The position numbers and the translations under genes are program-made. From Paracyclopina nana (taxonomy: Eukaryota; Arthropoda; Copepoda; Cyclopoida; Cyclopettidae): a stretch of DNA of 64,000 nt. Under the pieces are notes generated by a model. That model worked only from the letters and a program-made list of their open reading frames with translations. It was not told where the DNA came from and made no database searches. The stretch spans positions 5,600,001-5,664,000 of the forward strand of contig JAGUCH010000006.1 of assembly GCA_019096065.1 (NCBI GenBank), given 5' to 3'. Positions 25,728 through 60,300 of this stretch are shown here, one piece after another (the first letter of the stretch is position 1; every line of letters starts with the position of its first letter).

Positions 25728-25867
25728 TTCTGAAATATCCAAAAATCTGTGTAAACATAATGGGCAGACAAACTGGCGCCTTATAATAAATATATTAATG
25801 CCCTGTTCATGTATGAAAAGGTGTGGAAAAAATTGTAATAAAAAAGAGTCGGCTACTGATGATAACT

Positions 25868-26162
25868 TAAAGTGAAGCATTCGACAAGTTCAGCTAGAGA
25901 CCGAGCGGCGTTTTCTTGGGCAAATTCCGCCATTTTTGTTTTCCCAAGAATTATAAATTTTTTCGGTCTTTCGAGTTTCGAATTTTTCACATTTGTTTAA
26001 GCTTTGAGTACGCTAAAAAAGCAAAAATCGTAATTGTTTATTGCTGAGTCTACCTGATTTTTTGCATCAGCTGACGAAACATTTTGCGATTTTTGCAAGA
26101 CATTTTTATACTTAAACGAGTTGTCCGCGCATTTTCTCGGCTACCACGAACAGGGCTTAAGT
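25868..26162. repeat. Dispersed repeat family, copy 4
   Basis: It begins 'gttcagctagagaccgagcg' and ends 'cacgaacagggctta'. The first block is also seen at about 5778-5810 ('aactaaaaaccgagcagcat') and at 18195. The 'acgaacagggc' end recurs at 29225 and, as 'tgaacagggc', at 23570. It sits immediately upstream of the prolyl hydroxylase start and may overlap its promoter. Confidence 0.45.
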
Positions 26163-36408: not shown

Positions 36409-39400
36409 ATGTTTCAGAGGGAGCATTGCAAAATGGGTACTTTGGGCGAAAACAAGGCCCCCAAATTTGTCAGAAAGCCTCAATTGAGGCAGGAAGACGA
36501 TGGAAATCGTCTCATTTTCGAGTGCGAGCTCAGCGGCCATCCGCAGCCCGAGGTTTCGTGGTTCCGCCAAGATGAGAAAATTTCCGAAGACGACCGAACC
36601 GTCTTCAAAACAACCGAGACTCAAGTGGGCACTTTCATGGTTGTCCTTGAGCTCGATGATGTCGTGGAAAGTGATGCTGGCCTCTACAAAATCAGAGCCA
36701 AAAACAAATTTGGTGAAGTGGCAGCCTCCATCAACCTGAATTTCAGCCGTGAGTGCTTTCATTAGAAAGAGTAGCGCCACTCGCTTGCAAAAATTGGCCA
36801 CCAGCAAAAAATGGCATATTTACATCCATGCTTTGCCAATATAAAAAACCTGATGAAATTCCTCTTTTTTCCAGCTGTGGATGCTCCACAATTTCCGTAA
36901 GTGACAAATGTGCCAGAAATTTGAGTGTAGAGTTTGTTGCAGCAATGCTTTTCAAATTGCTGCTGCACCAGCTTTCCAAAGGTGACGATTTTTGCATTTT
37001 CACCAACTTTGGTTACGTTTGGTGCAGAGAAGTCCTTCACTATTTGGCAAAACATCCACTTATGGAAATGTTCTACATCTCGTTCCATTCCGCTCCTAGA
37101 AAGCAGCAAAAATCCTCTTCTGTCTAATAGAAAGTTCCATCTTCAGACACGAGCAAAAAAACGGAAAGTTTGCAGCCTAAAACTTTCTTCTAATACTTTG
37201 TCATCAGAGAAATCAATTAAATTGCGGGGGTAAAAATGAAAGCCTAAAAGCTTATCCATAACATGCTCAATGCTTTTACATGACAGCTAAAGAGGCTGGC
37301 TTATTTTGCCTTTTTTTTTACTTCGTTAGGAAATTAAAGCAAATTCTTGAGAAATTGAGGCTTTCTAAAAACTGCTACGTTGCAATCTATCAGCCAATAA
37401 ATTTCCTTGATGAATTGATCTACTACTAAATTGCTTTTCTCCCCCATTTCGAGCTTCAAAATGCCTGACTTTCACAGTAGATCAAATCAAGAGGAATTTC
37501 TGCCCACATTTTGTAATGCCAAGCAATACACTGGGACATTTTCAGCCTTGCTGCAATCAGCAAAAGCTCATGCGACAAGCCTTTAAAATTCGTCAGCTTA
37601 CTTGACTTGAATGCTGCTTGAGAACGACCTGATGTCTGCCAAAAGAATGTCTGACCGCTGTCATGATATTTCATGTGCTTTTCGGATACTTGATTTCAAT
37701 TCAATTGTGACCACTTCTTCAATAGCAGCTTTCCATTACATTTTTTGAAGGCTTCTATTTTCAGCCAAAAATCCGCGTTTTGGGCTTACGATTTTCGAGC
37801 ACGCTGTGAAGCTTGCTACTTACTCTTCGAGCCAGGAAATCGCTCGTTTCGTCCATAAATCACAGGGATTTTTTTATGACTTTTATACACACTCCACAAA
37901 AGCAGGATGTAGGTGCAAAGGAAGATTTTTTCCCCACCATTCAGTCTACTTTTTGCCAAAAAGTAGCAGCCTCAAAATATAAGCACTTTTGCACACCTGG
38001 CTCCATCTTGAAAAAAAATTGCAGTTTTGATACTATGAATTGCCAGTAGAAAGCTCCTATTTTAATTGGGCCATTTTAGAATGTGAGGAGCAGCTGTATT
38101 TTAAGCCATGACACAATCTTTGCTTTTGTACTTTTCCCCTATGAAAGAAATGGACATTTTTCCTCCTTTGTGGAAGAGATGGAAGAACCAGTCATTTTTC
38201 ATGGGGGGGCAAAAAATGGTATATCTATATACTGTGCAATTTACGGTCAACCAGTCTTGGTATAGCGCAGGTTCTTTCCAATTTTCCATAGCTACATATT
38301 TTCCATCCTCATAGCAATAGCAGCAGGAAAAACGTGCCAAGAATGATTAGTGAGATTGCTAGTGTTTTTCTACTAATAGCCAGCCTAGAAAAACAGGAAT
38401 TTCGTGGCTTTTCCCATTTAGCCTCTTATCTGCTTTGTAATTATGTGCCTTGCTAGGGCAGCTAGTTAATTAATTTTTTCAAGAGCATGTTTTCTTCTTG
38501 CTTGCCTGGGTAAAGACAATGACAGTGAGCTCCTCAAAAATCGACTTAATCTTTGAACAATGAGGAATCTGAAAACAGAAGGCAGAGAAAGCAATTGAAA
38601 GCTGCACAGTTCAAAAACGAGGGGAAAACAGCCTTCAAACATTGCAATTTATATATGCTAGAAGCCCACACCCATAAAGCATAAAATTGATGAGCAGCAG
38701 TTTTGTTTTCAACATAGCATTTCCATTTGGAATAATAAAATGCATATCTGGCCAAGTCATGAAAAAGTAACTTTCTCTTGGGAATTCTCCTTCATCAATG
38801 TCATATCCTAAAAATAAGACTTGCTGAAAGCTATGCTGACAGATTTGCCACAGTGAAAGGCACTTCTGAAAACAACTCTTTTGATAATTTGAACTTGAGG
38901 CTTTTTTTGGAAGGAAAAAAATGCTTGATTTTTCATGAGTTTTCTTCACCATAGAGTTGTGCAACATTTTTTGAAAGCTTTGGACCGAAAGCAGATGTGT
39001 GCTGAGGATTAAGCTGTCCTTTTTTCAGGATTTTTTTTTCAGCCTAAATGCCATCTTCATAATTTTTCAGACAAGTTGATGGAAACGCGCCCACTTTTGT
39101 GACAAAGCCAACAATCCGCCAAGATGCAGATGGCACCACTCTTATTTTTCATTGCTCAATTTTCGCAGACCCTAAACCGGTTGTGTCTTGGTTTCATAAT
39201 GGGGATAAGATCCAAGACAACAAAAAGTTTCAGGTGAGACTAAGAGAGTAATGAATTTCTCGGAATGCCCGCCATTTTTGCCTTCAAAGAACAAGCATGC
39301 AAAGCTGATGCACTTTTTTGACATATGAGACATTTCCCAAATTGTGAAAGCATCTTTGAAATGAATATTTCTAGGTGGTCACCAAAGAGCTTGATCAATA

Positions 39401-42349
39401 CACAGTGGACTGCACTTTGCTACTGAAAAATGTCACCGTTGAGGATGCTGGCAAGTACAAGGTCACAGCTCGGAATGACCTTGGTGAATCCAATGCCACA
39501 ATCAGCCTCAATTTCGACAGTAAGTGAATCAGAAGTAACTCTACCCATATTAAGAAGTCAGTACTAGTTCTGTGTATATGCTGCATCATGGGAATGAAAT
39601 ATTCCAAATAGCTTCCAGACTTTTCCATTTTCAGCAGATTTTTTCCTACCTTCTGGCATTTTGTATATTTTTCACTCAAAAGACAGAGAGCTATGGAAAA
39701 TGTAAGGGCATAATAGGCTTGTCAAACTTCAAGCTCCTTTTGAACTTGAAAAAGAAGAAACTACATTTTTCTCCTACATATATAGCAAGTTTTTCAATCA
39801 ATTTTGCAGCAGCATGCAAGGCCAAAAATAGCTTTCTAAACTTACAAAAAATCTTCTGATATTAAGAATCGTCTGGGAAGCTTTCACGAGAAAATATTTG
39901 GCCTTGAAAAGGCCTGGCCTTTTGCTAATGTTCCTTGGAGTGGAAATGAGGCTTTTTTATCGCTTTTCAGGCGAAGAAGCACCCGTTCCCAAGGGAGGAG
40001 TGAAACCGACGTTCACAGAGAGACCGGTGATCCGGCAAAGTGAGGAAGAACCGAATAAGATCATTTTTGAATGCAGGCTGGTTGGGGAGCCAAGGCCTGA
40101 AATCACGTGGTTTCACAATGACAAGCAAATCGTGGAGACGGACAGACACAAATGCTCCATGGAGCTTGATGCCAAGCTCTACTACCTTTGCAGGCTGGAG
40201 ATAGCCAATGTTGATGCTCGGGACATTGGCTGCTACAAGGCCGTGGCAAGAAACGCCTCTGGGGAAGGCCATGCCACCATCAACTTGACCTTTGAAGAAG
40301 GCACTCCTGGTGAAAAGCCCAAACTTCCAGATGGCATCCCACCAAGGTTTCCCAAGAAGCCCTCAATCAAGCAAGAAGGTGATGACCTCATCCTGGAGTG
40401 CATTTTGGAGGCCAATCCTCTGCCAGAGATCACCTGGTTCAGGAAAGACAAAATCATCAAGGAAGACTCGAGAATCACGTGGGAGTGCAAGAAGGGGAAA
40501 AAGAACAGATTTCTGCTCACGCTCCGGATCAAGAATCCAACCTTGAAGGATGCTGGCATGTACAGATGCAATGCCTTCAACTCATACGGGGACAGCAATG
40601 CAAACATTGACTTGAAATTCGAAAGTAAGATCCTTAATCAACTCACCTCGGATTCCAGAAAGCTCAACAACTCTCGCTTTTTTCACTTTTCACTGCTTTG
40701 TTTACGTTCTGCAATTTTTCCGCGAACGCGCGCGGCGTCAACGAAAAATCTGAAAGTCATTTGTTTACGTTTCCAGCTGAAGACGAAACCGGCAAAACTG
40801 AGGCTGATTCCGGCGCCTCCGGAATCCCGCCCACTTTCACTGAAAAGCCCAAGATCGTGCCCAATGACAAGGGGACTTTGGTCACGCTCAAATTCCGGAT
40901 CCGGGCGGATCCCAAGCCGGAAATCCAGTGGTTCAAGGGTATGGAGAAGATCCAGAATTCGGCCAAATTCACGCAAAAATACATATCCTTGTCCGCCTCA
41001 AACGAGTACGAGATTGCCTTGGAGATCCAGGATCCAAGTGCCGATGATGGCGGAGACTACAAGTGCCTTGTCAAGAATGACATGGGCCAGCTGCAAGCCA
41101 AGCTGAACTTGAACATTGAGGCTGAGCCAGCCACTCCAGGAAAGACCACAGATGCACCTTCTTTTGTTGAGAAGCCTAAGATTGTCACTCTGAACGAGGG
41201 CAAACTTGTCCAGCTGATTGTGAGGTACAAAGCTGTGTCCAAATGCACATGCAGCTGGTTCTACAAGGAAACCTTGATCCAGCAGAGCCAAAGTGTTCAG
41301 GTAAAAGTGTAGCTCCTATTAAAGTCTCTTCGAAACCAACCAACCTTTTCACTCCAGGTGTTCCATGAAAAAATCGACACTTCTTCCTATGAATGCCGAT
41401 TGGAGATCAGGGAACCAGGACCCAACACCGCAGGCATGTACAAGTGTCTGGTCTCAAACGAAAAGGGGGAGATCAATGCCAACCTTATGCTGAACATCCA
41501 GATGGCTCACCAAGAAACTGAGGTGTCCGAATCAAAAATGACAAGGAAAACTAGCCAAACTGGAGTGAGTGTGAAAAAAGAGAGACGAAGGAGCGTCATT
41601 CTCCAATGCGCTGTTTCTGGAGAAAAAGAAGTGGACATTGTTTGGAAAAAGGAAGGTGTCACTCTGGAGACAGCTCAAAAGAAGAAATCTTCCAGATACT
41701 CTGTGGAGAAGAAAGTCTCGGAGCAAAACCAGACCATTGTTCAATTGGAGATTCTGGATGCCGATGTCGATGATGCTGGAGTGTACGAGCTTCAAGCCAA
41801 GGGTGCTGATGGAGAAACCATGTCTCAAAGAGTTGAGCTCACTGAGGAGCAGGTGAGAATGAGCCTCCAGGCTCAAGATGAAGCTGAGGCCAAGAAGGCC
41901 AAAAAGAAAAAGAAGAAGAAGAAGACCACTGAGAAAAAAGAGATTATTGCTCCTGAAATATCATCCTTCCTCAAGAACTTGGTAACTATCTGATATGGCA
42001 AGTCTCAGACCTTGAGTGTGACTCTGATTGTATTCTAGATTTTAAAAGAAGGCGAAAATATTGAGATGAAATGCAGACTTGAGGAGGAGATTGACGAGTC
42101 TGATGTCACCATCACCTGGTACTTCAATGACAAGGAGTTCACTGAGAATGAAAGAGTTCAAATTAGCTTTGATGGAATCTTTGCCAGGCTCTTCGTTGCC
42201 AGGTAGGAATTTCAGTTTCCAATTTTGTGTTCTTTTTTATACAACTTTGTGTCCTAAGTTGTACTATGGCTGACATGGGCTCCTACAAGGTTCATTTCAA
42301 AAATGAAAAGGGTGAAGATGAAACCACTGGAAAGGTGACCGTCAAACCA
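36409..42349 (+). other. Twitchin N-terminal block: exons 1-9, Ig domains 1-8
   Basis: Exons 36409-36748, 36875-36896, 39071-39233, 39375-39519, 39971-40624, 40777-41300, 41358-41981, 42039-42202 and 42259-42349 give 909 residues. Ig domains by position: 1 at 36448-36745; 2 at 39080-39517 (split by an intron); 3 at 39997-40290; 4 at 40340-40622; 5 at 40830-41120; 6 at 41150-41505 (split); 7 at about 41540-41850, weak, missing parts of the usual core; 8 at about 41945-42349 (split twice). Each strong domain shows the Ig core C...W...D-x-G-x-Y (for example FECELSGHPQPEVSWF and DAGLYKIRAKN). Exon 2 is a 22-base microexon. A poly-Lys run (K8) lies between Ig7 and Ig8 at about 41898-41920. Confidence 0.9.
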
Positions 42350-45300
42350 GTAAGTTTTGGCCTCTTAACATTCAAATACCTGGAAAATCTTAATTCCAAA
42401 TGTTTTCAGGCTCCAAAGGTGGAAGAACCTGTAAGTATCTTTGCTCAAATTCAACATGAAAAGTGAAATGTTTCAAAGCTTGATAAAGTCTCCACTCTAA
42501 AAACAAATCTGACAAATCACTTTTTGTCAACAAAGGAACCAGAGCCTGAACCTCAAGCAAAGCAAGAGCCAGCTAAGCTGAACATACAGCGTAAGAAAAG
42601 CGAGGCAGTTGCTAAGAAAGAGGAGGAGCCAGCTCCAGAAGCGGGTGATATGTTTAAGCTAAAGAAAAAGTCAAGTGTGACACCCAGAAAGCAATTGCCT
42701 GCTCAGGAGGAGCAACCAGCGTTTGCAGGGATGAAGCTTAAGAAAGCTGAAACAGTGAAAAGGCAATGGGATGATGCATCCCTTCAGAAGGTTGACCTCA
42801 AGCATCACGAGTTTGAGGGTCAACCTCAAGAGGAACAGGTGACAGCTCCACATTCCAACACTTTGGGCAACCTAATTTAACCCCCCATTATTACATGATT
42901 AGCCTGAGAAATCCGTCGGCACAATATCCGTCTCGGATGCCTTGCCTGATGATGACAAGGACAAAAAGACCAAAAAGAAAAAGAAAAAAGAGGGGGATAA
43001 GGTAACATTGGGGCTTCTTTCAGAGCAACATACAGCAATGCAGAAATTAAGACTCCTGCTATGAAAAATGTTCTCTACATTTCTGAGAACTAACTCACTT
43101 TCTTCATCTTTCTGAAAAAGTGTTGCTCTTTCTCAGGTGCAAAAGACATCACAAAAACAAGTTCTTGGTGCTGATCAAGAATCTGAGGTAAACACTCATT
43201 TTTGCACAATTTACACGGCTCAAGGAGATCTTTATTTAACCATATCAGTATACACCCATATTTCTTTCAAAATGATCGGCTCCTTGCAAGACGTGATGGC
43301 CATTTTCTTATCTCCTTGAAATCAAAGCAAACAAAAATGGGAAAATATCTCTTCCTTCTCTCTCATTTCATCTTTCATGCGATTTTTACTCCATTTAGGG
43401 AACAGAAGACCAAGAAGCTGCAATGAAGGATCATGATGAGGTAAAAATCATTCATTTATTTAATGTATCAGCCAAAACTATTATCATACAAACAAACCAA
43501 ATGTGCATCTAGGAAACACTTGTAAGCATTGAAGAATTGAGTTCTTCAATTGAAGACATAGGACAGGCAGACAAATCATCAAGTATTACTACTACACACC
43601 ACAGTCAGAAAAATTCTCAACAAAAAATCACTAAACAGCAATCAGAAAGACAGATGCAGATTGAAGAATCTTCAGCTGCCATCACCAAGGTAAATCTGCA
43701 TCCATAAAACTAAACAAACTTAAACTACTACATTGAGCCATTGAACAGAAAACATCCATGACTGTTACAAAGCAATCAAGGCTTGAGGAATCTGGCTTTA
43801 GAAATGCAGCTGAGCTTGATGCAAATCAGGCTGGTCAAGTTGATTCAGCTACTTCATCTGGTAGCAGTACAACTCAAAAAAAGAGTAGCACAATGCAAAC
43901 ATCAATTGCCATAGACTCTTTGGTTATGGAAGCTAAAGAGGTAAAAACACAAAATAAAACCACTAACGCATGCACTTGCCTGATTTGATTCCCCAGCTAT
44001 TAGTACATCAAAATAATAATGAGATTGCATCATTAGGCTTCTAAAGTCATTTTGGCAGATGAAGAGCTTTCTGTCACCCTCAAGGACAGTGAAACTGAAA
44101 GTGAATTTTCTGCCACTGACTTAGTTGAGGTTGAGTTTTCCCAATCATCTGATGATGAGCTCAAGTGCTTGTCAAAAACTTCCACACTGGTAAACCTTCT
44201 TCACGATTGTACTGTTCAAGTTCGAATCTATTGTATCCTTGCAGTGCTAAAAAATAATTATTTTCACTTGTCATTTGCAAATGGACACAGCATGAATGCT
44301 TTTCAAATACCTTGAGATATTGCCTTTGAATACAGTTTGCTCTCATAATATGACTTCACAGGTTTCAGAGGAGACACATACCAAAGTATTGGGTCAAAGA
44401 GAAACCGAACAAACAGGAACATCACAAAGCTCCAAACAGAAGACTACCACATCAGTGAGAAATGTGCCATTAACAGTTGAACGCAAACCAAAAGTTCAAG
44501 TACCAGACAGCAGCAGCGAGTCAGATGAAGACTCCATGCTTATACACCAAACATCTAGAAACACTACAACAAAAACAAACGCCATTGAAATCATAGAGGT
44601 GATGGAAGAATCTGAAGATTCTCCTTCTCAGGTAAATCACTCAGATGAGCTCATGAAACTTATTACTCTTAATCATCATTACACTTTACAGAGGACAAAC
44701 TTAGACACAAGTACCATCAAAGATGATACTGGCATTAAACATAGTGAACACAGCCAAAAAGAGCTTTCTACCAGTGAGACAGACTCTTCTCAGGTAAACA
44801 GTTCAGGAAATTTTGATTTCCCTTTCAAAATTGAACCTTGTGGCTTTTTATACAAGGACCAATATGTACCATCACATGACATACCCAAGGAAGTTGCTCA
44901 GGATGACCAGGACTCATCCTATCAACTTCAGACCAAGACACAAACCCAAAAAGACACAGCCCTACTAGAGGTACCATCATCTCTATTCAATCTTCATCAA
45001 ATACCACTTTTCTCATCACTTTGATAATTTAAGGCTACTATCAAGCAAAAACAAAGCCTTGGATCATCAAATGATGAAGCAAGTGCTTCACAGGACATAA
45101 AAATCTTAAACAAATCTTCAGTGAAGGTACACATATTTTTCAACTTACTTTCCTATTCAATCCTGTTAGCTTTTTCTATTGCACTCAATTTTTCCAAAAC
45201 CCATTACATAACAGTGTTTTAATCCATAAAGGATGGAAAACAAAGTCACACAATACACAAAACTATTACCAAAATAACCAGAAGAACCAGGAAAATTGAT

Positions 45301-48300
45301 GAAGAATCTGAGGAGTACCTGTATGAAAGTGAAGGCACTGATTCGTCTGAGGAAGACCATGAAAAGGACCAAGTTGCTAAGCTTGACAGCCAGAGGAAGA
45401 CAAAGCAAGATACAGCTGGACAATCTTCAATCAAGCGGAGAGGATCAAGAAAAATGTCATTACATAAAACAGCCAGTGACAATAGTGCTTTCAAATTCGA
45501 AACTGAGGTGCAAACTGAAGACAAAAAAGTTGAGGCACAATCTTCTACTATGAAATCTTGGGAAATTGTTCACATGGAAGGCTCTCAATTTTCTTCAAGT
45601 TTCGAGGCCAAAGTTGATGATACATCTGATCAAGGCTCAGCCAAAGAATTTGAAGATTGGGAGGTGGTAGAAAAGGCTCAAATTGATGAGCTCAAAAAAG
45701 AGTCTGATTCACAAACATCTAGGAAACAATCGCAGAGCGAGTCTCTGAAAGCTAATGCAGCCAATAAAGGTACATCAATTAGCCTTGGCCAAACATTGGC
45801 AGAAAAGTCTAAGCCCATTGTGCAAGAAGGGAACAAGGAAGTTTTCCGGGATATGAAAACGTCTACTGCAAAGTCTGAAGAAGCAGAAAAAGTGAAGAAT
45901 CGAAATGAAGTAGTTAGGAAAGAAATTAAGGATTCAGTTTTTGAGCTAGACGATTTGGAATTGGAATTGTTAATGGAGAAAGCTCCCTCTGAGCTCAAAG
46001 AAGATTTACCATCGGAAAGTTCTGAGTTTGAAAATACTATTACAGAGATTAAAGGGAGAAGCAAACCTGAAAAAACTGCAAAAATCAAGATTACCAAGAA
46101 AAGTCAATCAAAATCTAGATCTGAAGACTCGACAAGCACAATCACTAACAAAGATATTAGGAAAGAAGAGGACACCTTGTTTTTGGAAAAAGATACTTCT
46201 GCTGATGATAGAACTTTAAGCGTTGTGGAAGAAGAATCAGTTGAAAAAAGTGCCTCAAAATCGAAAAGAGGATCGAGGCAAAACCCTGAAAAAATCAAAG
46301 GTTCTACCCGTGCTTTGTCAAGCATTTCTTCTCGATCTGATGAGAAAGAAGCAACTGACATTCATATTGGCGATGAATCTATGATCACATCAAAGGGCAG
46401 AGATTCCTTTGCCTCAGATTCAAGCACTGCAGAAAAACAAGAATCTTCTCTTGGTTCCTTGACTGGTTCAGAGACAACCGACGAGGTCAAGAGTATGGAA
46501 AAATTAGCTAAGATGCCATCATATGAAGACCAGAATACAAAAACTATAAGTGAAAGTCAAAAAGCCAAATCTATGCTTGAGATTACTGAAGAAACTGAAG
46601 AAGGCCTTGGTAATGACAAGAAGATGAAAGATCAAACAGGAGACCAAGAAATCCAAATCAAACTTGACACTGAACCTAAAAGAAGCGTTCAGAAAAAAAT
46701 CAAGAAAACCAAGGTTCTTAAAAAGATGAGCTCTAGTTCATTTACTCGTGAAGAGGAAACTACTGATAACATTGAGGCTGAAACTGCAGCTAATTTAAAG
46801 CCAACAAAATACTTGGAAGAATATCAGCCTGTCAACGCCAAAAAAGCCTCCGAGTTCAATGTGGAGAAAGCATCAGTTGAAGTAACCCCAACTCAGCAAC
46901 TTTCTGGGTCAGAAGATGGCTCTGTAGATTTTGAGGTTCAAAAAGGCCATCATTTAGAGCTAGAACAAGATATTATGCACGTTGACAACACGGATAAAGC
47001 AAGCTTAGCTAAACCTCTGGAAGATGTGGGGCAAATATTGGGAAATGCTAAGACAAGACAACACGCAACCGAAAATGTTGCATCCAAAGCTATTGATGAA
47101 ACGGAAGCTAATTCAATTGAAAACATTTCCTCAAAGACAGAATTTAACAAAAAACATGACACAACAATTCTTACCACAGACAGAGATGCCCAAAAACAAA
47201 CGTTTGAAACCCCCACACCATGTTCCCAGGTAAAAAACATCATATACTTTTTCATTATGCTCAAATAGAAACAGTCCTTTAAGATTCTATCATTTTTGCT
47301 TTCCAAGGATACACAACCCTCAAAAGCTCAGGAAAGCAGCAAAAAAGTTACCAAAACTAACCTTAGGAAAAAACAGCCAACTTCGCTTGATTCACAAACA
47401 GAGCCATCAAAAGACCAAAATCTTGAGGTATTAGAACCGTTTAATGCTTGCTCATGAGTTATTTTGAAATTGCATGAATTTTAATTAGGCAACAATGCAA
47501 ACTGGAGAGTTTCATGCTGAGACAATGAAACCCCTTAGTAAACTACAGCAGACAACATCAGCCCAAGAATCTAGCGATTCGCCTGAAAAACTGACGCTTT
47601 CTGACGTTCAGACTTCCTTTGATACCAAATCCAAATGCATAGTTGATACTGAAACTGAACAAATTGAAGAGGTACTTGCCACAATTATTGAACATCTTAA
47701 TTGCTTTTCATTTACCTTTTGAGATCTTAGACAAGTATTGAAAACAAGAAGCAAACTCTTGCACCAAGAAATAAGGCAGTAAATATCGATATCAATTTGT
47801 TTTTGAGCATATTAGCTATCAGCTATTTTTTTAAAATAACCGTAGGCTTCAGATGATCTGGTTACAACAGTTGATGAGAGACAAGATTTAATACTTCAAT
47901 CCATGTCTGAATTAGAACTAAAACAGCCCAAATTAGCAGATACCCAAGTAAGCAACTGTGAAAGCATGTTGATTGGTGATTTTCCAATGACGCTTTTCTT
48001 TATGCATGCTCTTGATAAAATCCATTTTGGATGTCTTTAGTAATAATGAAGATTTTTCAGAAATCTGAACAAGAGGCCCCACCTCCTCCTTTTGCTGGCT
48101 TAAAGCTCAAAAAGGCTAAACCTATACAAAGGAAGCCATTGGAGGAGCCAAAGATAGAGAAGGTTGAACTAAAACACCATGAATTTGAAAAACAACCACA
48201 AGTGGAAGAGGTATCATGACACTTAGCTCATAATCCATGCACAAAACATTCAAATTCATCATCACAGGTTGAAAAGGATACTAAGGTAATACTAACAAAC

Positions 48301-51300
48301 ATCGAAAAAGACAAGAAAATCAGCAAAAAGCCCAAAACGAAAAAACTTGCCCAAGAAAAGATTGTTACAGAACAGGTAAAAATGTCAGAAACCAACAACA
48401 TAACAAAAATAGCCATTCACATCATAATTCTAACATTGTATTTTCATCCTGCAGGATGACCAATCATCTGCAATTGAGACAGCAGATGAATCTTTAATAC
48501 AAACTGAAGTCATTCAAAAGGATCTCAAGACTCCTGATGAACCAAAACAACCAAAGCCAGATTTAGTTAAAAAGCCAAAACAGGTTGACACATGATTTTC
48601 CGCTCTTTTATGCTGCTTGCAGTTTAACATTATTTTTCTTAGCTAAAAATTGATGAGGAGCCTTCCTTTTTGGGCTTGAAGCTAAAAAAAGCTTCAACTG
48701 TAAAGCAAGCTTTACCTGAGGCAGGTCTTGAAAAAGTTGACTTGAAGCATCATGAGTTTGAAAAACCTCCTCAAATTGAAGAGGTAGCAGAACATTTACT
48801 AATTGCAATCAGGAATCTCTATGAAAGTTTTTATTTTCAAGCCTGAGAGGAAATCTAGCGTGCATTTGTCAGAGCCAAAAGTATTAAAAGAGCCTAAAAG
48901 TAATGAGTCACCTGAGGTTATACACAAGGTACACTCTTAGCCATTTCGGGATATTTCATTTGCAATTTTGAATTGATTCACATAGGATGAGGATGACTCC
49001 ATAACCAAGAAGGTTGTGGTGAAAAAGATCCTTAAAAAGAGGGATAAAGAAGCATCTGACTCTACAGAGCAGGTAACAAAAATGATCTTATTTCTTGAAA
49101 AGTAGATCCTTTTTGATCTAAAACAAATTAAAACCAGCTTGAGGATCATCCAAAGAAAAGTGTGGCTTTTGAAGTGGACCAGCCTTCTAAAAAAGAAGAC
49201 ACAGCAATCAAGATGAAAAAACGCATCGTGAAACAGGTAGGCATGTGATTGTGCAGAGTGGTCAAAGCATCATAAATTTGCCTTGGATTTTTCAATAGAA
49301 AGTAGATGCTCCCGAGCTTCATCATGCTACAGAAGAACAAATCAGTGATGATGAAGTTGCCAAACAATTGAATACAGAATCCGCTCCTTCTCAAAAGCCA
49401 GATTTGTCACAGACAGAAAGTGACTCATTTTCATTTGAAACATCCGAGAAGATGGAAAGTGTCCAAGGCTTGAAATCTAACCAAATTCCTAAAGAGCATA
49501 ATAATGCCAAGAAGATTCATGGTGGTCAAGACTCTGTTCGTGTTGATATTGCTGAAAGAGTGGAATTTGCCTCAGCTTTGCATCCAGAAGAGCCAACAAA
49601 AACGTCAATATTTCCTCAACAATCAGGAGAAACAATTCAATCAGTGTCAATACATGCTCCTGACCATGATGAGAGCTTCCAAAAGTTTCAGCCAAATACT
49701 CCTGATTCATTAAAGCCTCTAATCACTACTGAAAGGAGCATAAAGCAGGAATCTGTTGGCATTGACTACAAAGATGAAATGGAGTCAACAAAACCCATTG
49801 AGCCTGAAAATGTGCCCAAACACAAAATCAAAGCATCTTCTGTTGATAAGACAACTCAGCCTTATGGCATTGACTCTCAAGACTTGACCATAGAAGGTGT
49901 TGGAAAGATGGAAGAGGATAAAAGAAAATCGCACAAATTGAGTCCAAAGCAAGTGGAGGAGAGAGAAAATTATGTTAAAATTGACAATACAGAGAGCGTC
50001 GAAGGTCTGGCAACAATTGACATAGTTGAAGAAAACAAGAAGACCATTTCACCCAAGGAAGTACAACATAAAAGGAGCTTGGTAAGCATCAAACCAGCTG
50101 AGGAGCAACTGGAATCAGTGAAAGATCTTGAACTTGATGAAAAAGAGGTTAGTCAATCAGTGAAGCCTATATCAGTTGACAGAAGAAGGGAATCAGTGCA
50201 GATTGATCAGCAAGAGCAAATGGAGGCAGCAGCTGATTTTTCGACTGAGGCCCGTGAAGAGAATAAGGTTGAACCTAGATTATCTGGACAACATAGGAGA
50301 TCAGTCAGTGTGACAAGGGTTCGTAAAATTGAGAAGGCTCAGTCTTTCACTGAAGATGAGCCAGAAAAAGAGCTCATTCAACCCTCTTCTACTGATGATA
50401 AAAATGAAGCTATCCAAGTGACTGAAGCCAACAAAGCTGAGAATACTTCTGTTGTCCATCCAATTTCACCAGAAGTTGTTGATAGAGTAAAACCTAAATC
50501 TGAGCCCAAAAAGAAGGGAGCCATGATTGTGGCTGAGCAAGAAAAATTAGAAGCTGCGAAAGGGTTTCAAGAAGATTCAGCTGATACGGAACGACTTATC
50601 TTGAAACCTGCTGATGAAAAGTCTGCTGCTTTCAGTGTCACTGCTGAAAATCAATTTGAGTCACTTTCTAGCTTAGAGGAGACCAAAGAGAAAAAGCAGA
50701 AAATCAAGTCTAAATCAATAAAAGAGAAGAAACCATCTTTGAATGTGAGTGAGTCAGAAAAAGTTGAGTCAGCTGACAAATTCATACATGAGACAACCAA
50801 AGTTGAAAATTTGAAGCCAATTCAAAGTGAGGACAAAAATGAGTATGTTGAAGTTGATGCCAAAGAAAAAATTGAAGTAATTGATTACCTTGTTGAGGAG
50901 CCTCTTGATGACCAAGATTCTGTGAAACCGCAACATGTGGAAGACCGCAAAGCCTCACTAATGGTTAAAATTGTGGATGAGTCTGAGGCTTCAGAAAATT
51001 TTCTGCCAGAGTTAGCAGAGAAAGAGCAAAGTGCTTCAACCAAAAGAGTGCTTGATAAAAAGTCTTCCCTTGTGATGAAAGCCTCTGAAAAAATTGAATC
51101 TTCAAAGACTCTGGTGCAAAATGAGCCAGACATTGCAGAGCATGCAATGCCCTTACAAGATGAAAGGCTCTCGTCCAAGATGACCTCATCTGAGCAAGTG
51201 GAAAATTTAGGCATTCTTAAGAAGGCTGAAGACGCCATCATGGAAAAAGGTTCATCATCAAAGGTATCTGGCAAAAGGTCATTGGCTGTAACTAAGACTT

Positions 51301-54300
51301 CTGAGCAGCTGGAGACCACAAAACCTTTCAATGAGGAAGTCCCTGTTCCAAAAGACAAGGCCAAGCAAATCAAAGAGGCTAATGAAAAACCATCAGTCAC
51401 AGTAGAAGATTCGATGGAGAAACTGGAATCTGTTACCGTTTTTGAGCCTGAGGAGCCCGATATTCCAAATGTTACTCTACCTCAGACGGTTCAAGAGGAA
51501 AAACTTGCGATCAGCATCAAATCCTCTGAGAAAATTGGCTCTCAGAGCGTCCTCCTTGGTGAAAAGAAAGAACCACAAGAGAAAATTAAGCCCAAGAAAA
51601 TTCAAGAAAAGAAGAGGTCTGTTGTAGTAGACTCGCTTCAAAAGGTTGAAACATCAAACTCATTGAAGCCTATTGATCCACCCAAAATAATTGAGCCACA
51701 ATTATCACAGGCTCAAGAATCCATCACTGTTGCCTCTTCAACAGAGTCTCAGGTAGCTGAGACGATTGAGAAGCCAGCTAAAACAAAGAAAGATTCCATT
51801 AAGCCCAAAAGTGAGAAGGCTAAAAAGGAACCAATGCAAGTGTCAGCTACTGAGAATGAAGAAGTTGCCAAACACTTTATACCAGAGAAAGTCAAGGATG
51901 AAAGAGCTCTTCCAGCCCAGCCAAATGAACAGGAATCAATCCAGGTTACAAGAGCGAAAGATTTAGAACCAGTGACCAAGTTAGCTGCAAAAAGTGCCCC
52001 TGAGAAAAGCAAATTAAAGACTTCAATCAAGAGAAATAAAGTTGTGGAAGGTGGTGAGAATGTAACTGAAGAATTAGCTGCTTCTAAAGAGCCTTTGGAG
52101 ACTCCCGAGCTGAGCATTAAGCCTTCAGATGACATTCCAGAGACCATCAAGCCTACAATATCAGACACCAAAGCAGTAATGATTCTTAACACTACCACTT
52201 CTCAGGACAACAATACTAAGGTTCTCTTTCAGGTGACAGAAAAAGCCATAATATCAGATTCTGCAAAAGTTGAACAACTTAGGAAATTGAAGGTAGTTTT
52301 TAGAGTTAGCATGCATTTCATTGAATGTAGATTAGCATAGCATGGTCCCCTGTTATGTGTACATAAGAGCTTCTTTATCATTGTGGCTTTTCTTGTGTAT
52401 ATTTTCAGAAAGAGGAGCCAGAACCTGAACCAGTGGTAATTAGAAAGCAAGCTACGCATTAACTCTAAACATGCCTTTTAAAATTGTGTGTCAGGACATA
52501 TTTTTGTCCATAAAAGTGTTTATTTTCTAACACATCTCTTCAAGAGCTATCCTGCTGTCACTTTCATTTTCTTCACAAAACTGTCATTTCTCACGCTTTA
52601 TTTTATTGCCACATTTGGAGCTGAGTGTTGAAAGGCAAGAATTTTGCAAGCAAAAAATGTTTCTGGCGCCTTGACCTTTGAAATCAAGGATATCGCCACT
52701 AAAGTAGTATAGCATTCCATGTTTTCATAGCATTCTTTGTTTTCGTTTTCACATGCACACTGGACTGAAGCTGAAAAATTACTCAATTTTTGCACCCTTT
52801 GCTCATTGTGCTATCAAAAACAACACTTAATTTGTTTAAACTTATGATCATGAAGATCATCATTTTAAGCTCCAATCCTCAAAATATAGCATTTACTTAT
52901 TTTCCTTCTTCATCTCTCTCTGTCAAAATACACTTTATATCAACTTATTTCCTCTGTCAAAAAGGATGATGTGGTTGTGTCCAAAACATCTGAGCAAGGT
53001 AGCATGCCACAAGCAAGTGGTACTCTTGCTCAGACTGAGGGTAAAGCAGCCACCAGACAACCAGACAAACCTAAGGAAGACCAAAAGATGCGTCAAAAAG
53101 CGTCGACATCTTCCAGTTGCTCAGAATCAGAGACGGACAATTCTGGTGAAACTGACTTTCAGGTTTGAGCAGACCCGATTTCTCACAGTGTGAACTGTAG
53201 CAATGTAATTTTTCATGTTTTTCTGTACGTGATCAACTGCGGCTGCAGTTGAGTGTGTAATTTGACCTTTCAGCTCCTTTCATTCCACAAAATGAGGAGA
53301 ATCATACTAGTTGTAAGCTTTTCTGTTGTTGTCTTGACTTGCTATTCCCATTTTGACACTCCTAGCCATGTTCACACCGCCAATTAATTAATTTTGCAGC
53401 CACCACCTGTTGAAGAGAGAAAGAAAACTTACAAAGAGATTCAGGAGGAGGAAAAAGCAAGAAGGGCTTCTCTGCAAAATCCAAAGAAAGATGAGGTAAG
53501 CATGACACAAAAATTCTTAGCTTTTAGTCATTCAATTAGTGATTTTTTTGCTGAAAAAACTTGGGAAACTAAGAGTTAAAACTGAAATTGTTTCAATCTT
53601 TCTTGGCTGAGTTGTAAAGAAACTGTATGGCTGTTTTTGTTTTAACTTATAATCTTGAGAAAATACTCTTTATTTTTCTATATTTCTGTTGATATTGTGT
53701 AAAAATAGCTATAAAGTCAAACGAAGCATTTCAAAATCGTTGGGCCTGTTTCATTTCAAATGTCGTAATTTATGGAATTTACGTTTGAAGTGCAATCAAT
53801 CTTCATGTAGTTAAAAGAAGCTTGGCTGTTTGTATAGCGCTGATAATGAGGGAAATGAAACGCTGACCTTTGCGTTTTGACAGTTAGTTAAAAAAGGAAA
53901 AATGCGAGTCATGCTTTAAATATTTCAGGAGAAACCTAAATACGTTTACGTTCCCAAAAAGGTATTTGATCAATGTTTAGACCAGATGACAGCAAAAAGT
54001 GGAAATCAGTGCCTCACCAAAGGCATTATTTTCAGACTCATTAAAAAATCACCTTCTCAAATCTATCTGGGTGTCTTATTCGTGCTGTTTATGTATTACA
54101 CACATTTTCTTCACATATTTAATGTATGGGAGGGTAACTCAGTCAGATTACCAAAATATAACCATTTATGTGGTTAAATCTCTTCTAGTTTCACTGTCAC
54201 TCTCTCTCACTCTTTCATTGTTGTTGTCCTTCTTTAAGGGCATTCTCACCTCCAACATTCAGTCTACTTGACTAGAAAAGTGTTATGTTGTGAGAATGCC

Positions 54301-57300
54301 CTTGGTCAGCTTGGCTAATGGCAGCATATTGCAGAAATCCGAAGTCAAAGAGAAGAGAGATTCCATGTCAGAATGGGAAAAACGTCTGGAAAGACCCTCT
54401 GTACCTCTTTTGGCCAAGGGGCCACCTGGACCTCCCAAGATTGTTGAAATTGAAAAGAAGTACAGTGCCATTGAAGGTAATCTTAAGTCATCTATTATGG
54501 CTATTTTTGATCAATTTTAATTTCTTCCAGAGCAAACTGCCTGCTGCTACATGTTTGTTGAGGGCAATCCTGCTCCTACCTTCAAATTCTTCAAAGGTAC
54601 TAGTGAGATTATTGAAGGTGGCAGGTACAAGCTCATCAGTGATGGTGACAACAACAACATGATCATGATGGCCATAGCCAAAGTCAAAAGCTCTGACGAG
54701 GCTGAATATAGGGTCTTGATTGAGAATTGTCATGGCAGTGATGAAGCCAACTTTATGCTCTTTGTATCAGGTAACATTTACCCAATAACTAACTAAGTTT
54801 AAATTATTAATTTCTCTTTAACATAGATGGCTCTGGCATGGATTTCAGAACCATGCTCAAAAAGAAAAAGTATGCCAAGCATGCCGCAGATGATCAAGGG
54901 CCTGACTGGGGAGACCTGAAGCATGTTGAGAGAGAAGAGGGCGAGACTGAACCCTCTCCAGATAAGGTCAGTATTGAGACTAATTTGATCACGATGATGC
55001 ATACATTTTTTGACTCTGGACTGAAATGCTAGAATGTCGCATCAAGTTACTATTAAAAGTTCAAATATTCTCGCAGAGCTCGAAGAGAAACTCAATCACT
55101 GCTGAGAAGGTGGAAAATTGGCCAGAATTAAAGCCAGTTCCAACTTTGAGAAGGGTATGCTGCTAAATCAGTTCCAAGATTTTTTGAGCCCAATTAAAAT
55201 CACATTGATATTAAGGAGAAAAGCTGAATGTTTGCAAAAGACCACATTTAATTTTTTGTACAGCACATCAAGTGTACTACAAGTGATTTTCCGCTCAAAT
55301 TATCTTGGATTTGGCTTAAATGGCAAAGAGATACCTTTTGCCTATTTGAGCCGGAAATCAGCTGATTTTATTTAAAGTTGAGTCACCAACCGGTTTCGAA
55401 TCGGAAAAAAAGCCTGGCTGAAGTTATACCAGATTGGCCCACCCTAAAGCCTTTTCGCAAGGCCAAAAAAGAGGTTCACACTTGTTTAAAAAAGAGAATT
55501 CAGCATGATAAGATAATCATTGATGGAATAAATTGATGGTGGTGCATTCAAAATTCAAAAAATGGGTGTTTTTCAAATGTTTTAATCTCATAGTTCACTA
55601 AAGAATTGCCACAAGACTTCTTAGCTTTTCTTTTCCAATCATCAATTCTGCTATCTTTGAGCCAATTCTAAAGACACAAATGTTAGTTTTGGTGAGACTT
55701 GTTTAGAGTGGCAGTTCTTTAGTCAATTATGTAATCATGGATATGTTGGATATATAAATCGTGAAGCTCTTTATTTCAGCGTCTTAAATCTGCTCTACTC
55801 TTTTACGATAAAAAAATTCTCTTGTTAAATCTATCATGAACATCTTGCTTTAAACTGTCATCCCAATACTCTTATAAAGATATGTAAAAGTTAAACTACT
55901 TGACACACTGCCTTTCTTTAAAAGATAAAAATTGAACTCTCTTGTAACAGTTCCTATCTTTCTTCACTGATATTAACTGAAAAATATTGAGTTCTAACAA
56001 TGATTTTGGTATCTTCTAGGAGAAGGGAGAATGGACCATTCCACTGAAGGACAAGCAGGTGACTGAGAGGAAGGACAAATTTGTGGAAATGTCTTGCACA
56101 TTCTCAGTCAAAAGTGCCAATTGCATTTGGCAGAAAAATGGAAAAGTAAGTTATGTGTATTCCAAACAAAAGTTTCTAGTATGCTTAAACTTGCATACCA
56201 AAAACAGGAAATTTCAACGACAAAACGTATCAAAAGCACTGTTGATGAAGAGGGTACAACTTTCACCATCAGAATAGAAAAGCCAAATTACAAGGACAGA
56301 GGAAAATATTCTTGTGACATTGATGGCATTGTCACTTCTGCTTATCTAGATGTTGAAGGTAACTTATTTTCAGCAGGTGCGTTACCATAAAAATACCATT
56401 GCATTGTCATGCTTTTTTCCAGAAATTCCTTGCAAATTTACCAGAGTGCTCAAGAGCAGGAGGGAATACGAAAAAACCACATTTGATCTGCTATGCTCAG
56501 TGGAAGATGAAAGTGTTGAAGTGGACTGGTTCTTAAATGAGCTGGAAATCACTCCCAATCTGACACACTTTGACAAGCTTGAGTTCATTTCTGATGGCAG
56601 GGATAGAATCTTACGCATTAAAGATTGCCCTATGGACTTTAACAATGCTGAATTTAAAGCTACCACATCAGCTGATGAGACCTCATGCAAACTCATCGTG
56701 AGGCCCTTGCCAGAATTCAGGGATAGGCTTGTTGATGTTGAAGTCAATGTTGGCAACGAGGCTATTTTTAAATGTACCATTGATGATGCAGAAGCTGAAC
56801 CAGACTGGTTCATTGGTGGAGAGAAGATCAAGGAGAATGACAAGTTCATCTTCAAGTCAATTGATGAGAATGAGCGAAGATTGATCATCAAAGATTGCCA
56901 GCTGGTGGATATTGGCACTGTTGCAATTCAGTTTGCTGGTGGTCTTGTCTCCAGCACTGCCAACCTGACTGTCAATGATGGATCAGGTAGAAACAAAGGT
57001 GATGGTGATGACGACGGCGATGGGTCCAAGTTCGGCAAGGGCAAGGCTCCACCAAGGATCCTCTCTGATACTCTAGTCAATGCTGTCATCAAAGTGAGTA
57101 AGTCACATACCTGGACTGCTGAGATTATTGGGAAACCTGCCACCGAGAAAAAATGGTTCTTTGAGGGTAAAGAGCTCTTTGAGAGTGAAAAAATAAAAAT
57201 TATCAATGAGGAGGCCAAGACAACAATTACCATCCAGGATGGTCTCAGGAGAGACACTGGTATGTACAAGCTACATGTTGAAAACATCAATGGCTCAGAT

Positions 57301-60300
57301 GAGGCCAGTGTTGAATTGGTTGTCCTCGGACCCTCAGCAAGACCAATGGGACCTTTGGAGTGCCTTGATGTCCTGGCCAATAGTTGCACCTTGGCTTGGA
57401 AGGCTCCTGGGGATGATGGAGGTTGTCCAGTTCAAGAATATGCTATTGAAATGCTTTGCCCCAAGACCAAAAAGTGGAAAAGAATTGGAAAATGCCCTCC
57501 TCAGCCTCCACTCAAGTTTCCTGTCAATGATCTTGAGGAGGGCCAGGAGTACAAGTTCAGGGTATTTGCTATCAACGAAGAAGGAGAGTCTGAGCCCCTG
57601 GAGAGTGAGAAGCCCATAAAGGCTAAGAATCCATTTGGACCACCTGGACCACCTCAAAATGTTCAGTTGGCAGATTGGGACATAGATCACATGGATCTCA
57701 CTTGGAGCCAGCCTCTAAGCAACAATGGGGCTCCTATAACAAAATACAGTGTAGAAAGGAGGTGTGAGACAACCAATTCAGCTTGGGAGGAAATTTGTGA
57801 GACTGATGCCAAGGTCAAAGAGCACACTGACACTAAAGGACTTGTCTTTGGGCACAAGTACCAGTATAGAGTGTTCTGCTACAACAGGGGAGGCAAGTCA
57901 GAGCCAGGAGGACCAACTCCAATTGTGGCATGCAGGAAACGTAAATGTAAGTCTTATTTGGCAATTCTTAGTAAGCTTACTTGATGATTTACTTTTTCCT
58001 TGCAGTGCCTCCAAGGATTGACAAAGATCATGTCTATCGGGACAAAATTTGGTGCAGAGTAAACAAATCTCTTAAGCTGGAGAATGTGTCTGTTGAGGGC
58101 GAGCCGCCTGCTAAAGTTACGTGGACTTTGAAAAATATTGACCAAGTCAAAGTTGAGAATGTCAAGATCGCCAATCCTGAATACTTCACATCCATTGTCA
58201 TTGAGAATGCTCAGAGAAAGCAAACTGGAATGTACAAGATTCTTGCTGTTAATGAACATGGACAGGATGAATGCGAGGTTGAATTTGTTGTCTTGGCTCC
58301 ACCTAGTCCTCCCATTGGACCATTGGTGATCAGTGATGTACACAAAGAAGGCTGTAAGCTAGCTTGGAAAGAGCCTCTGGATGATGGAGGCTCTCCAATT
58401 GACTCATACATCATTGAAAAGATGGACACTGAAACCGGGAAATGGACAGTTGCTGGGCGCACAGATGGTGACTTGTCAGTCAACCTGGAAGGTCTTGAAA
58501 CTGGCCGAAAATTGCGATTCAGGGTAAGGGCTCACAATGAAGAAGGTGAATCTGAACCATTGGATGGACCAGAAGATCCAATCTTAATCAAGGATCCATT
58601 TGATCCCCCTGGACCTCCTGGCTTGCCAGAAGTAATTGACTGGTCTGAGAGCATGGTCAAGCTGAAATGGTCTCCTCCGCTTAGAGAGAATGGAGCTCCA
58701 GTGACCAGCTATACCATAGAGTTTCGTGAGGCAGGTACTGATACCTGGACTACTGGACCAAAGGTGAAGGCCAAGAAATTTCCTGATGGAGAAGTTCACA
58801 ATTTGACTCCTGGAAAAAAGTATGAGTTCAGGGTTAGAGCAGAGAACAAAGCTGGTATAGGAGAGCCAAGTGAACACACCAATCCTCATTTTATGAAGGC
58901 CAGATTTGCACCACCTAAGATTGACAGGACCAACTTGGACACCAAGGTTGTCAAGGTGAATCAACAAGTAGTTATTGAAGTTGATGTTACTGGTGAGCCA
59001 GCACCAGAAACAACATGGTACATCAATGGGGAGCTCATTAAAGCTGAGGGTGCTGTCAGAAGTGCACACAGCCCTTTCCACACTAAACTCATGCTGATTC
59101 CAGCTAAGAGAGAGCTTTGTGGCACTTACAAGATCAAGGCCAAAAATGGCTCTGGTGAGGATGAAGCTGAGGTTCAACTCATTATTAGAGGAAAGCCTGG
59201 TCCTCCTGTTGGACCTCTTGAAGTGTTTGACATCACCAAGAACAATTGCAAGTTGAAATGGAAGCCTCCTCTAGATGATGGTGGATCACCCATTGAATAC
59301 TATGAAATTGAGAAACTGGATCCTAATAGCGGCATGTGGATTCCTTGTGGAACTTCAGCAACATGTGAAGCTGAAGTGAAACCTCTCAGTGAAGGCAAAG
59401 AGTACAAGTTCAGGGTTCGAGCTGTGAACAAGGACGGCGAAAGCCCTGATTTGGCTACCACTGAGCCCATAATTGCCAAAAATCCTTTTGATCCTCCTGG
59501 CAAACCAGATCCACCTGTACCACTTGACTGGAGTGTTGATTTCTGTGACTTGAAATGGGTGCCACCCAAGAGTGATGGTGGATCTCCAATTACTGGTTAC
59601 ATCATGGAGATCAGGGATAAAGACAAGAGAGCTTGGAAAGAAATTGATCAAGTTTTCAATGAGTCTGCTAGAACTTGCAAGGTTGAAGCTCCTCCGCTTG
59701 TTGAAGGTAACTACTATGAGTTCAGGGTTATTGCTGTGAACAAAGCTGGACCTTCTGAACCATCTGAGCCATCAACAACAATTAGGGCAAAAATTCGTTT
59801 TGCTAAGCCCAGGATTGACAGGTCGCAACTTCAAAAAAAGGTTCTTCATGTCGATCAATTGCTTCGCATCGATGCAGATTACACTGGAGAGCCAGAACCT
59901 GTGATTACTTGGATGGACCCAAGTGGAAATGTTCTTAAGGAAAACGATCGTATGACTATTGACTCTGGAGATTACCACACATATATGACAATAAAGAAGT
60001 GTCAAAGATCTGATACGGGAATCTATAGAGTCACCGCCAAAAACGATCAAGGAGTTGACTCTGCTGAGATAGATGTTTCAGTCATTTCAGTTCCTGGAAA
60101 ACCAATGGGTCCAATTTGGGTGACAAATGTTACATCCAGCTCTTGCCACTTGGAATGGAAGCCTCCAAAGGATGATGGAGGTGATCCTATCAAGTACTAC
60201 ACAGTGGAGAAAATGGATACTGAAAAAGGTGTTTGGATTCCATGTGGAGAAACCATGGGCAAAACACCTGAGTTTGATGTCACTGGACTCCATGAAGGTT

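Follow-up and report, generated by a model that had tools for sequence, protein, structure and literature searches.

A twitchin-class gene with a long insert between Ig8 and Ig9

We analysed a 64,000-nucleotide stretch of the Paracyclopina nana genome (contig 6, JAGUCH010000006.1, positions 5,600,001-5,664,000; hereafter the window, whose numbering is used unless another is given), in which a gene of the twitchin/projectin class carries a very long insert between its eighth and ninth immunoglobulin (Ig) domains. The genome searched comprises 92 Mb in 10 contigs. With the gene model extended downstream of the window, the modelled protein has 10,100 amino acids (aa) and presents 8 Ig domains, the insert, a second Ig tract, an Fn-Fn-Ig core and a kinase, which ends at about 74 kb, i.e. 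past the window edge. The identity of the gene and the position, length, open frames, exon phases, composition and repeats of its insert are read directly from the sequence.

The 8-Ig N-terminal tract of the twitchin/projectin class was found before the insert with a local hidden Markov model (HMM) for Ig domains. The domain string contains the long Fn-Fn-Ig core and ends with five Igs after the last FN3. Between the insert and the first FN3, four Igs were detected where six are expected, and the other two may lie in exons that the model cut short. The protein search returned 491 relatives, of which the best 120 were considered. Among these, the closest named protein to the core is that of the salmon louse, Lepeophtheirus salmonis, also a copepod (62% identity); two further proteins are 65-66% identical, and the other named ones, from insects and nematodes, 39-52%. 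The top matches of the kinase piece are the twitchin kinase structures 1kob, 1koa and 3uto of the PDB (best E 1.9e-76), and against the genome it scores 405 bits at its own locus and 159 bits at the next match. Domain order, kinase matches and core identity bear out the assignment to the twitchin class made in a preliminary description of this DNA, and the gene model and the Ig HMM place the insert between Ig8 and Ig9, as proposed there.

An origin of the insert exons in another gene was rejected, since they lie on the same strand, the flanking exons join the insert in phase 0 and the phases match those of Ig8 and Ig9, and also because in the salmon louse protein a disordered segment is continuous with Ig9 and the core. 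The segment 54389-54769 is 61% identical to that protein. Nested genes on the opposite strand were rejected as well, the three minus-strand frames that were tried giving no Pfam match. The twitchin core is modelled as a single exon of about 14.6 kb (58006-72610; contig 6: 5658006-5672610) encoding 4,868 aa, in an open frame of 4,879 aa.

A chain of phase-0 exons

The insert is modelled as 29 exons at 42410-53961 (Table 1), all of them divisible by three, stop-free and of phase 0-0, which add up to 8,217 nt or 2,739 aa. The 29 phase-0 exons and about 2,740 residues of the preliminary description are confirmed by this model, as is its statement that exons could be skipped without a change of frame, each modelled exon being frame-neutral. 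We used our own gene-modelling program, which scores coding frames and splice sites and allows introns in all three phases. All 29 exons were recovered exactly at intron costs of 8 and 10, 27 of them at a cost of 6 and 23 at a cost of 4, with a coding model whose training included some insert exons. The median exon length is 36 aa, and two giant exons of 998 and 666 aa (exons 25 and 13) hold 1,664 of the 2,739 aa (61%).

With phases left free, the best model of the 12.5-kb stretch scored 843 and contained 30 consecutive 0-0 exons. Scores of 17-87 and 0-0 runs of 1-4 were obtained for thirteen controls, namely the reverse complement, four Markov sequences and eight strand-stretches taken at four window positions that partly overlap; chance open frames were rejected, the controls yielding no comparable exon chain. 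Phase 0-0 applies to 3 of the gene's 20 other internal modelled exons, compared with 29/29 in the insert (Fisher p = 1.8e-10). Each of the 28 introns between the insert exons has a T content above the mean of the exons.

Two introns (44632-44691 and 44794-44856) are in frame and stop-free as called, and a likely third of this kind lies within exon 25. This 57-nt candidate has a T content of 0.32, compared with 0.19 and 0.22 in its flanks, and was modelled as an intron at a cost of 6. Splitting exon 25 there would likely give 30 exons and 2,720 aa. A doubtful exon of 15 nt, outside the 29, disappeared when the fully trained model was run at its highest intron cost. As modelled, the insert has 29 exons to within a few (29-30 or so), all in phase 0, for a predicted length of about 2,720-2,739 aa.

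Another explanation is that a number of the small exons are rarely used or are artefacts of the model and that the true insert is much shorter, perhaps 1,700-2,000 aa. The self-training of the model and these in-frame, stop-free stretches speak in its favour, together with exons 6 and 7, which are incomplete at some settings. However, the two giant exons, each a single long open frame, by themselves amount to 1,664 aa, and neither the control sequences nor the T-richness of the introns fits artefactual exons. We consider this explanation improbable.

Composition, repeats and motifs of the insert

The insert contains 5% Pro (P), 13% Glu (E), 6% Val (V), 13% Lys (K), 12% Ser and 8% Thr, with P, E, V and K (PEVK) together amounting to 38%. 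Thirteen of the 29 exons (1-3, 18-24, 26, 28 and 29) are PEVK-rich (42-100%, rounded), and exon 25 stands at 41%. Exons 4-17 have 18-35% PEVK and are mostly rich in Ser, Thr, Glu and Lys (Ser 0-23%, Thr 3-18%). Under the window rule of PMC12063666 (more than 40% PEVK within 250 aa), 992 of 2,490 windows pass, jointly spanning residues 1235-2739 only. The PEVK likeness stated in the preliminary description is hence not supported throughout the insert. A charge-hydropathy rule classes 50 of the 53 windows (100 aa each) as disordered, and none of the nine insert pieces tried gave a Pfam domain.

Considering this composition, exons 4-17 (1,215 aa including the 666-aa exon) could form a regulatory or binding scaffold rich in Ser and Thr, the KLKKA...LKHHEFE motifs of exons 2, 18 and 21 serving as docking sites and elasticity being limited to the flanking PEVK-rich exons and the repeat exon. 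The low PEVK content of the block agrees with such a role, as do the motifs, whose three copies are plainly alike and resemble a single KLKK/HEFE-like stretch in the salmon louse protein (49% over 43 residues). Nevertheless, the block is still disordered by charge-hydropathy, and the insert pieces that were tried gave no known domain. Ser/Glu/Lys-rich segments are elastic in crayfish connectin. We hold a scaffold of this kind to be unlikely.

The 998-aa exon exhibits about 22 degenerate repeat units above 5 bits, some of them partial, with a spacing of about 36.5 residues in the regular part and the consensus KKEKIKPKKVQEKKESVSVDSSEKVESAKSLEPEEPEKESIK. The repeat profile, started by eye, was retrained on the 998-aa exon itself and on P0122, an 862-aa protein from a 7.3-kb contig; none of 20 shuffled versions of the exon contained a unit above 5 bits. 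In a half-exon cross-check, the units before residue 500 recovered 5 units above 5 bits beyond it, and the later units recovered 7 earlier ones. A profile built from the 998-aa exon alone detected 12 units in P0122 and 0 in 5 shuffles of that protein. P0122 is the sole protein related to the exon at E 0.001 among 7,988 scored candidates of limited length (E 5.8e-33, 28% identity over 64%), and the alignment starts at the first residues of the exon. Judged by this alignment, the 998-aa exon codes for protein outside this species as well. That the exon has a duplicate elsewhere was rejected, the 92-Mb genome containing a single match.

Comparison with projectin and twitchin in other animals

Insert lengths were measured in 58 of the best 120 relatives, those with 7 or more Igs ahead of the first FN3, and the other 62 were dropped. 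The longest were those of Euphydryas editha (1,213 aa), Leptidea sinapis (1,193 aa) and Aphomia sociella (880 aa), followed by Strongyloides stercoralis (834 aa) and a barnacle (705 aa). Eleven of the 58 read 4-13 aa, namely one snail and ten mosquitoes, in which the Ig count is off by one and the insert otherwise measures 226-300 aa. The present insert exceeds all 58, as had been anticipated. It cannot be claimed as a record, because longer isoforms are probably missing from the database, none of the best 120 proteins being longer than 7,983 aa, though lengths to about 12,059 aa were allowed. In the salmon louse protein, the disordered segment runs into Ig9 and the core; the model begins inside the insert, which is at least about 580 aa long.

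Insect projectin is organized as 8 Ig, PEVK-NTCS-1, 6 Ig and core, with an alternatively spliced PEVK (PMC3835035). This region shares with the copepod insert the protein family, the Ig8-Ig9 place, the many exons and the poor sequence conservation (PMC3835035). Its exons are alternatively used, as would be predicted from phase for those of the copepod. The differences lie in size, composition and repeats. The isoforms given in PMC3835035 have 34-624 aa, in agreement with the earlier statement that insect projectin PEVK segments are several-fold shorter than the about 2,739 aa modelled here. The alternatively used exons number 2 in Manduca, 11 in fly and beetle and 21 in honeybee (PMC3835035), compared with 29-30 modelled here. 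Insect projectin PEVKs are described as repeat-free except for that of honeybee (PMC3835035), whereas the copepod insert has the exon of about 22 repeat units and two giant exons.

Nematode twitchin (UNC-22), which had been thought to lack such an insert, has a unique segment at the equivalent position, separated by six Igs from the first FN3, with 26-42% PEVK and lengths of 193 aa in C. elegans, 491 aa in C. briggsae and 834 aa in S. stercoralis. Three nematode twitchins (P0104, P0086 and P0103) reach 491-834 aa at that place, far above the 193 aa of C. elegans. The independent evolution of a spring, also put forward previously, is not upheld, insect projectin having its spliced PEVK-NTCS-1 there (PMC3835035). 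From these comparisons the place of the insert is old and shared, and its length, repeat exon and mixed composition are the unusual parts. Among the papers listed by a literature search was no study of the PEVK of a copepod twitchin; part of this search was a poor test, its terms also matching "twitching" and "projecting".

Comparison with Sallimus and titin

A Sallimus/kettin-like I-band titin of the same genome was located on contig 1 (15706000-15747300), with a kettin-like Ig array, a spring, SH3, Igs and FN3. It was assigned by domain order, kettin and SH3 being recognised by eye. Its spring measures from about 1,880 aa (24 model rows) to 1,974 aa (31 exons), with unsure borders, and 12 of 24 modelled exons are of phase 0-0. 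Going by these models, twitchin has a spring that roughly equals or exceeds in length the one in Sallimus. In flies the arrangement is the reverse, with the long spring in Sallimus (PMC12063666, PMC9886281). Sallimus (D-titin, I-connectin) likewise has a long disordered spring and very large exons, and its spring length in fly is set by splicing (PMC12063666, PMC9886281). It is nevertheless a different gene, with a kettin-type Ig-linker array and SH3 and no kinase core. A kinship of the twitchin repeat or motif to Sallimus was rejected, no profile match below E 0.05 occurring in the Sallimus stretch searched. By eye, one Sallimus exon (contig 1: 15731222-15731489) ends loosely like KLKK...LKHHEFE, without a profile match.

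Like the PEVK region of vertebrate titin, the insert would be a disordered spring with many frame-neutral exons. The titin region is built from small, near-uniform exons and has a much higher PEVK content than is found here. In the copepod insert, small frame-neutral exons do not carry most of the spring, and the parallel with the titin PEVK cassette drawn in the preliminary description is not a close one, given the share of the two giant exons. In this the insert comes closer to fly Sallimus, whose spring has big exons, among them one of about 1,700 aa (PMC12063666). Titin splicing and tension are covered in PMC3835035.

Splicing of the insert

Only 5 of the 29 insert donors have G at +5, compared with 7 of 13 donors picked elsewhere in the gene (p = 0.026). 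In the modelled Sallimus Ig introns G occurs at +5 in 10 of 22, and pooling these with the 13 gives p = 0.016 versus the insert; all these samples are small and model-derived. The weak +5 donors are compatible with regulated splicing and would count as weak evidence for it. A and G precede the cut in 25 and 26 of the 29 insert donors (42430-53961), respectively.

Alternatively, the insert may be real and yet an essentially constitutive disordered linker without muscle-specific skipping, its phase-0 symmetry being a by-product of exon duplication and intron gain in repeat-rich sequence. The 0-0 phase of half of the modelled Sallimus spring exons would fit this, since it may reflect a habit of growing disordered segments, and the giant exons leave less for tuning by small ones. 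On the other hand, the PEVK exons of insect projectin are alternatively spliced, though just two of them in Manduca (PMC3835035), and the weak donors and the excess of 0-0 exons over the rest of the gene also speak against a constitutive linker. Such a linker is possible, and we lean against it.

A possible tunable spring

The insert is a real feature, a projectin PEVK region striking for its length, its repeats and its contrast with the Sallimus of the same genome. We regard it as likely, from the sequence data, that in this copepod twitchin/projectin (an A-band titin) the Ig8-Ig9 PEVK position has expanded to a disordered chain that serves as a spring tuned by exon skipping. The old PEVK/NTCS-1 position would have grown into a composite chain of about 2,720-2,739 residues, in which proline-rich PEVK exons occupy the two ends and the middle, together with the Ser/Thr/Glu/Lys block, the three motifs and the exon of 37-residue repeats. 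This chain would act as an entropic spring linking the N-terminal Ig tract to the thick-filament-bound core. At 0.35 nm per residue (the figure of PMC12063666), its contour length would be about 0.96 μm when fully stretched, and with the full insert the N-terminal Igs could be far from the thick filament, perhaps across the I-band. Skipping of the whole set of 29 exons would leave the protein in frame. Because each modelled exon is of phase 0-0, we infer that muscles or stages may skip different sets of exons and so tune the length and stiffness of the spring, which would mirror insect projectin, where this is done with far fewer residues. In the flight muscle of flies, most of the projectin PEVK is removed by splicing and the distance from Ig5-8 to the first FN3s is about 25 nm (PMC9886278).

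Several points weigh against this tunable spring. Without insert exons in the training, only 13-17 of the 29 exons were recovered exactly (eight settings), so that individual exon borders rest partly on self-training; in these models 21-38 of 27-62 exons were of phase 0-0, e.g. 29 of 38. The PEVK content of the whole insert lies under the 42-100% given for insect projectin (PMC3835035). The 666-aa exon had no relative at E 0.01 among 7,989 scored candidates of limited length, and the motif match in the salmon louse is a short one (blastp E 0.002). Projectin of leg and larval muscles in the fly lies on the thick filament (PMC9886281), a location in which the spring would be unstretched unless it bridged to the I-band. 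The splicing of fly projectin is termed minor (PMC12063666), which also favours the constitutive linker.

A bolder and rather doubtful extension is that in this copepod lineage the main tunable sarcomere spring moved from Sallimus to twitchin, making the latter a second titin-like filament towards the Z-disc. Twitchin, with a contour of up to about 1 μm, would then extend from the thick filament across the I-band, its length being set through phase-0 splicing, and the repeat exon could gain or lose 37-residue units. In the fly view, the long spring belongs to Sallimus, and projectin runs along the thick filament and has a short one; a twitchin spring at least as long as that of Sallimus in the same genome would, if true, break this division of labour. 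It would also provide a natural case in which to test how the length and stiffness of the sarcomere are set by spring length and splicing. Copepods have very fast escape muscles.

Features of the locus

Table 1. Exons of the insert and neighbouring parts of the twitchin-class gene (window numbering)
Feature	Position	Strand	Length and composition	Basis or remark
N-terminal twitchin tract, 8 Ig	36433-42349	+		gene model, local Ig HMM, Pfam I-set on pieces tried; first-exon borders uncertain
Ig8 exons	42039-42202 (phase 0-2), 42259-42349 (phase 2-0)	+		gene model
Insert exon 1	42410-42430	+	7 aa, 86% PEVK	gene model
Insert exon 2	42536-42838	+	101 aa, 47% PEVK	KLKKA...LKHHEFE motif, copy one
Insert exon 3	42903-43001	+	33 aa	gene model
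Insert exon 4	43137-43187	+	17 aa	gene model
Insert exon 5	43399-43440	+	14 aa	gene model
Insert exon 6	43513-43689	+	59 aa, Ser/Thr-rich	incomplete at some model settings
Insert exon 7	43749-43940	+	64 aa, Ser/Thr-rich	incomplete at some model settings
Insert exon 8	44037-44189	+	51 aa	gene model
Insert exon 9	44362-44631	+	90 aa, Ser/Thr-rich	gene model
Insert exon 10	44692-44793	+	34 aa	both adjoining introns in frame, stop-free
Insert exon 11	44857-44970	+	38 aa	gene model
Insert exon 12	45034-45126	+	31 aa	gene model
Insert exon 13	45232-47229	+	666 aa, Ser/Glu/Lys-rich, 32% PEVK	single long open frame
Insert exon 14	47308-47427	+	40 aa	gene model
Insert exon 15	47489-47671	+	61 aa	gene model
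Insert exon 16	47731-47778	+	16 aa	gene model
Insert exon 17	47846-47947	+	34 aa	gene model
Insert exon 18	48061-48210	+	50 aa, 60% PEVK	KLKKA...LKHHEFE motif, copy two
Insert exon 19	48268-48375	+	36 aa	gene model
Insert exon 20	48455-48583	+	43 aa	gene model
Insert exon 21	48643-48783	+	47 aa	KLKKA...LKHHEFE motif, copy three
Insert exon 22	48842-48928	+	29 aa, 59% PEVK	gene model
Insert exon 23	48986-49072	+	29 aa	gene model
Insert exon 24	49138-49236	+	33 aa	gene model
Insert exon 25	49299-52292	+	998 aa, ~22 degenerate ~37-residue repeats	probably two exons, 49299-52175 and 52233-52292
Likely in-frame intron within exon 25	52176-52232	+	57 nt, stop-free	gtaatg...ttctctttcag ends; possibly retained
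Insert exon 26	52409-52435	+	9 aa, 100% PEVK	gene model
Doubtful exon, outside the 29	52689-52703	+	15 nt, 5 aa	gene model at cost 8
Insert exon 27	52965-53162	+	66 aa, 27% PEVK	gene model
Insert exon 28	53400-53495	+	32 aa, 56% PEVK	gene model
Insert exon 29	53929-53961	+	11 aa, 82% PEVK	gene model
Exon with Ig9 run-up	54335-54476 (phase 0-1)	+		gene model
Ig9 exon	54531-54770	+		gene model
Remaining second Ig tract and start of Fn-Fn-Ig core	54827-64000	+		gene model, Pfam, protein search

Neighbouring genes

Three other genes are represented by pieces on the minus strand of the window: a C2H2 zinc-finger gene (3149-3490), a prolyl 4-hydroxylase alpha-subunit gene (23751-25889; Pfam P4Ha_N in two of three frames tried) and a neurotransmitter-gated ion-channel gene (29273-30368; Pfam Neur_chan_memb, with one match above and one below the cut-off). 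Downstream of twitchin, exons at 5682561-5685372 of contig 6 resemble a T-box transcription factor, by eye only.

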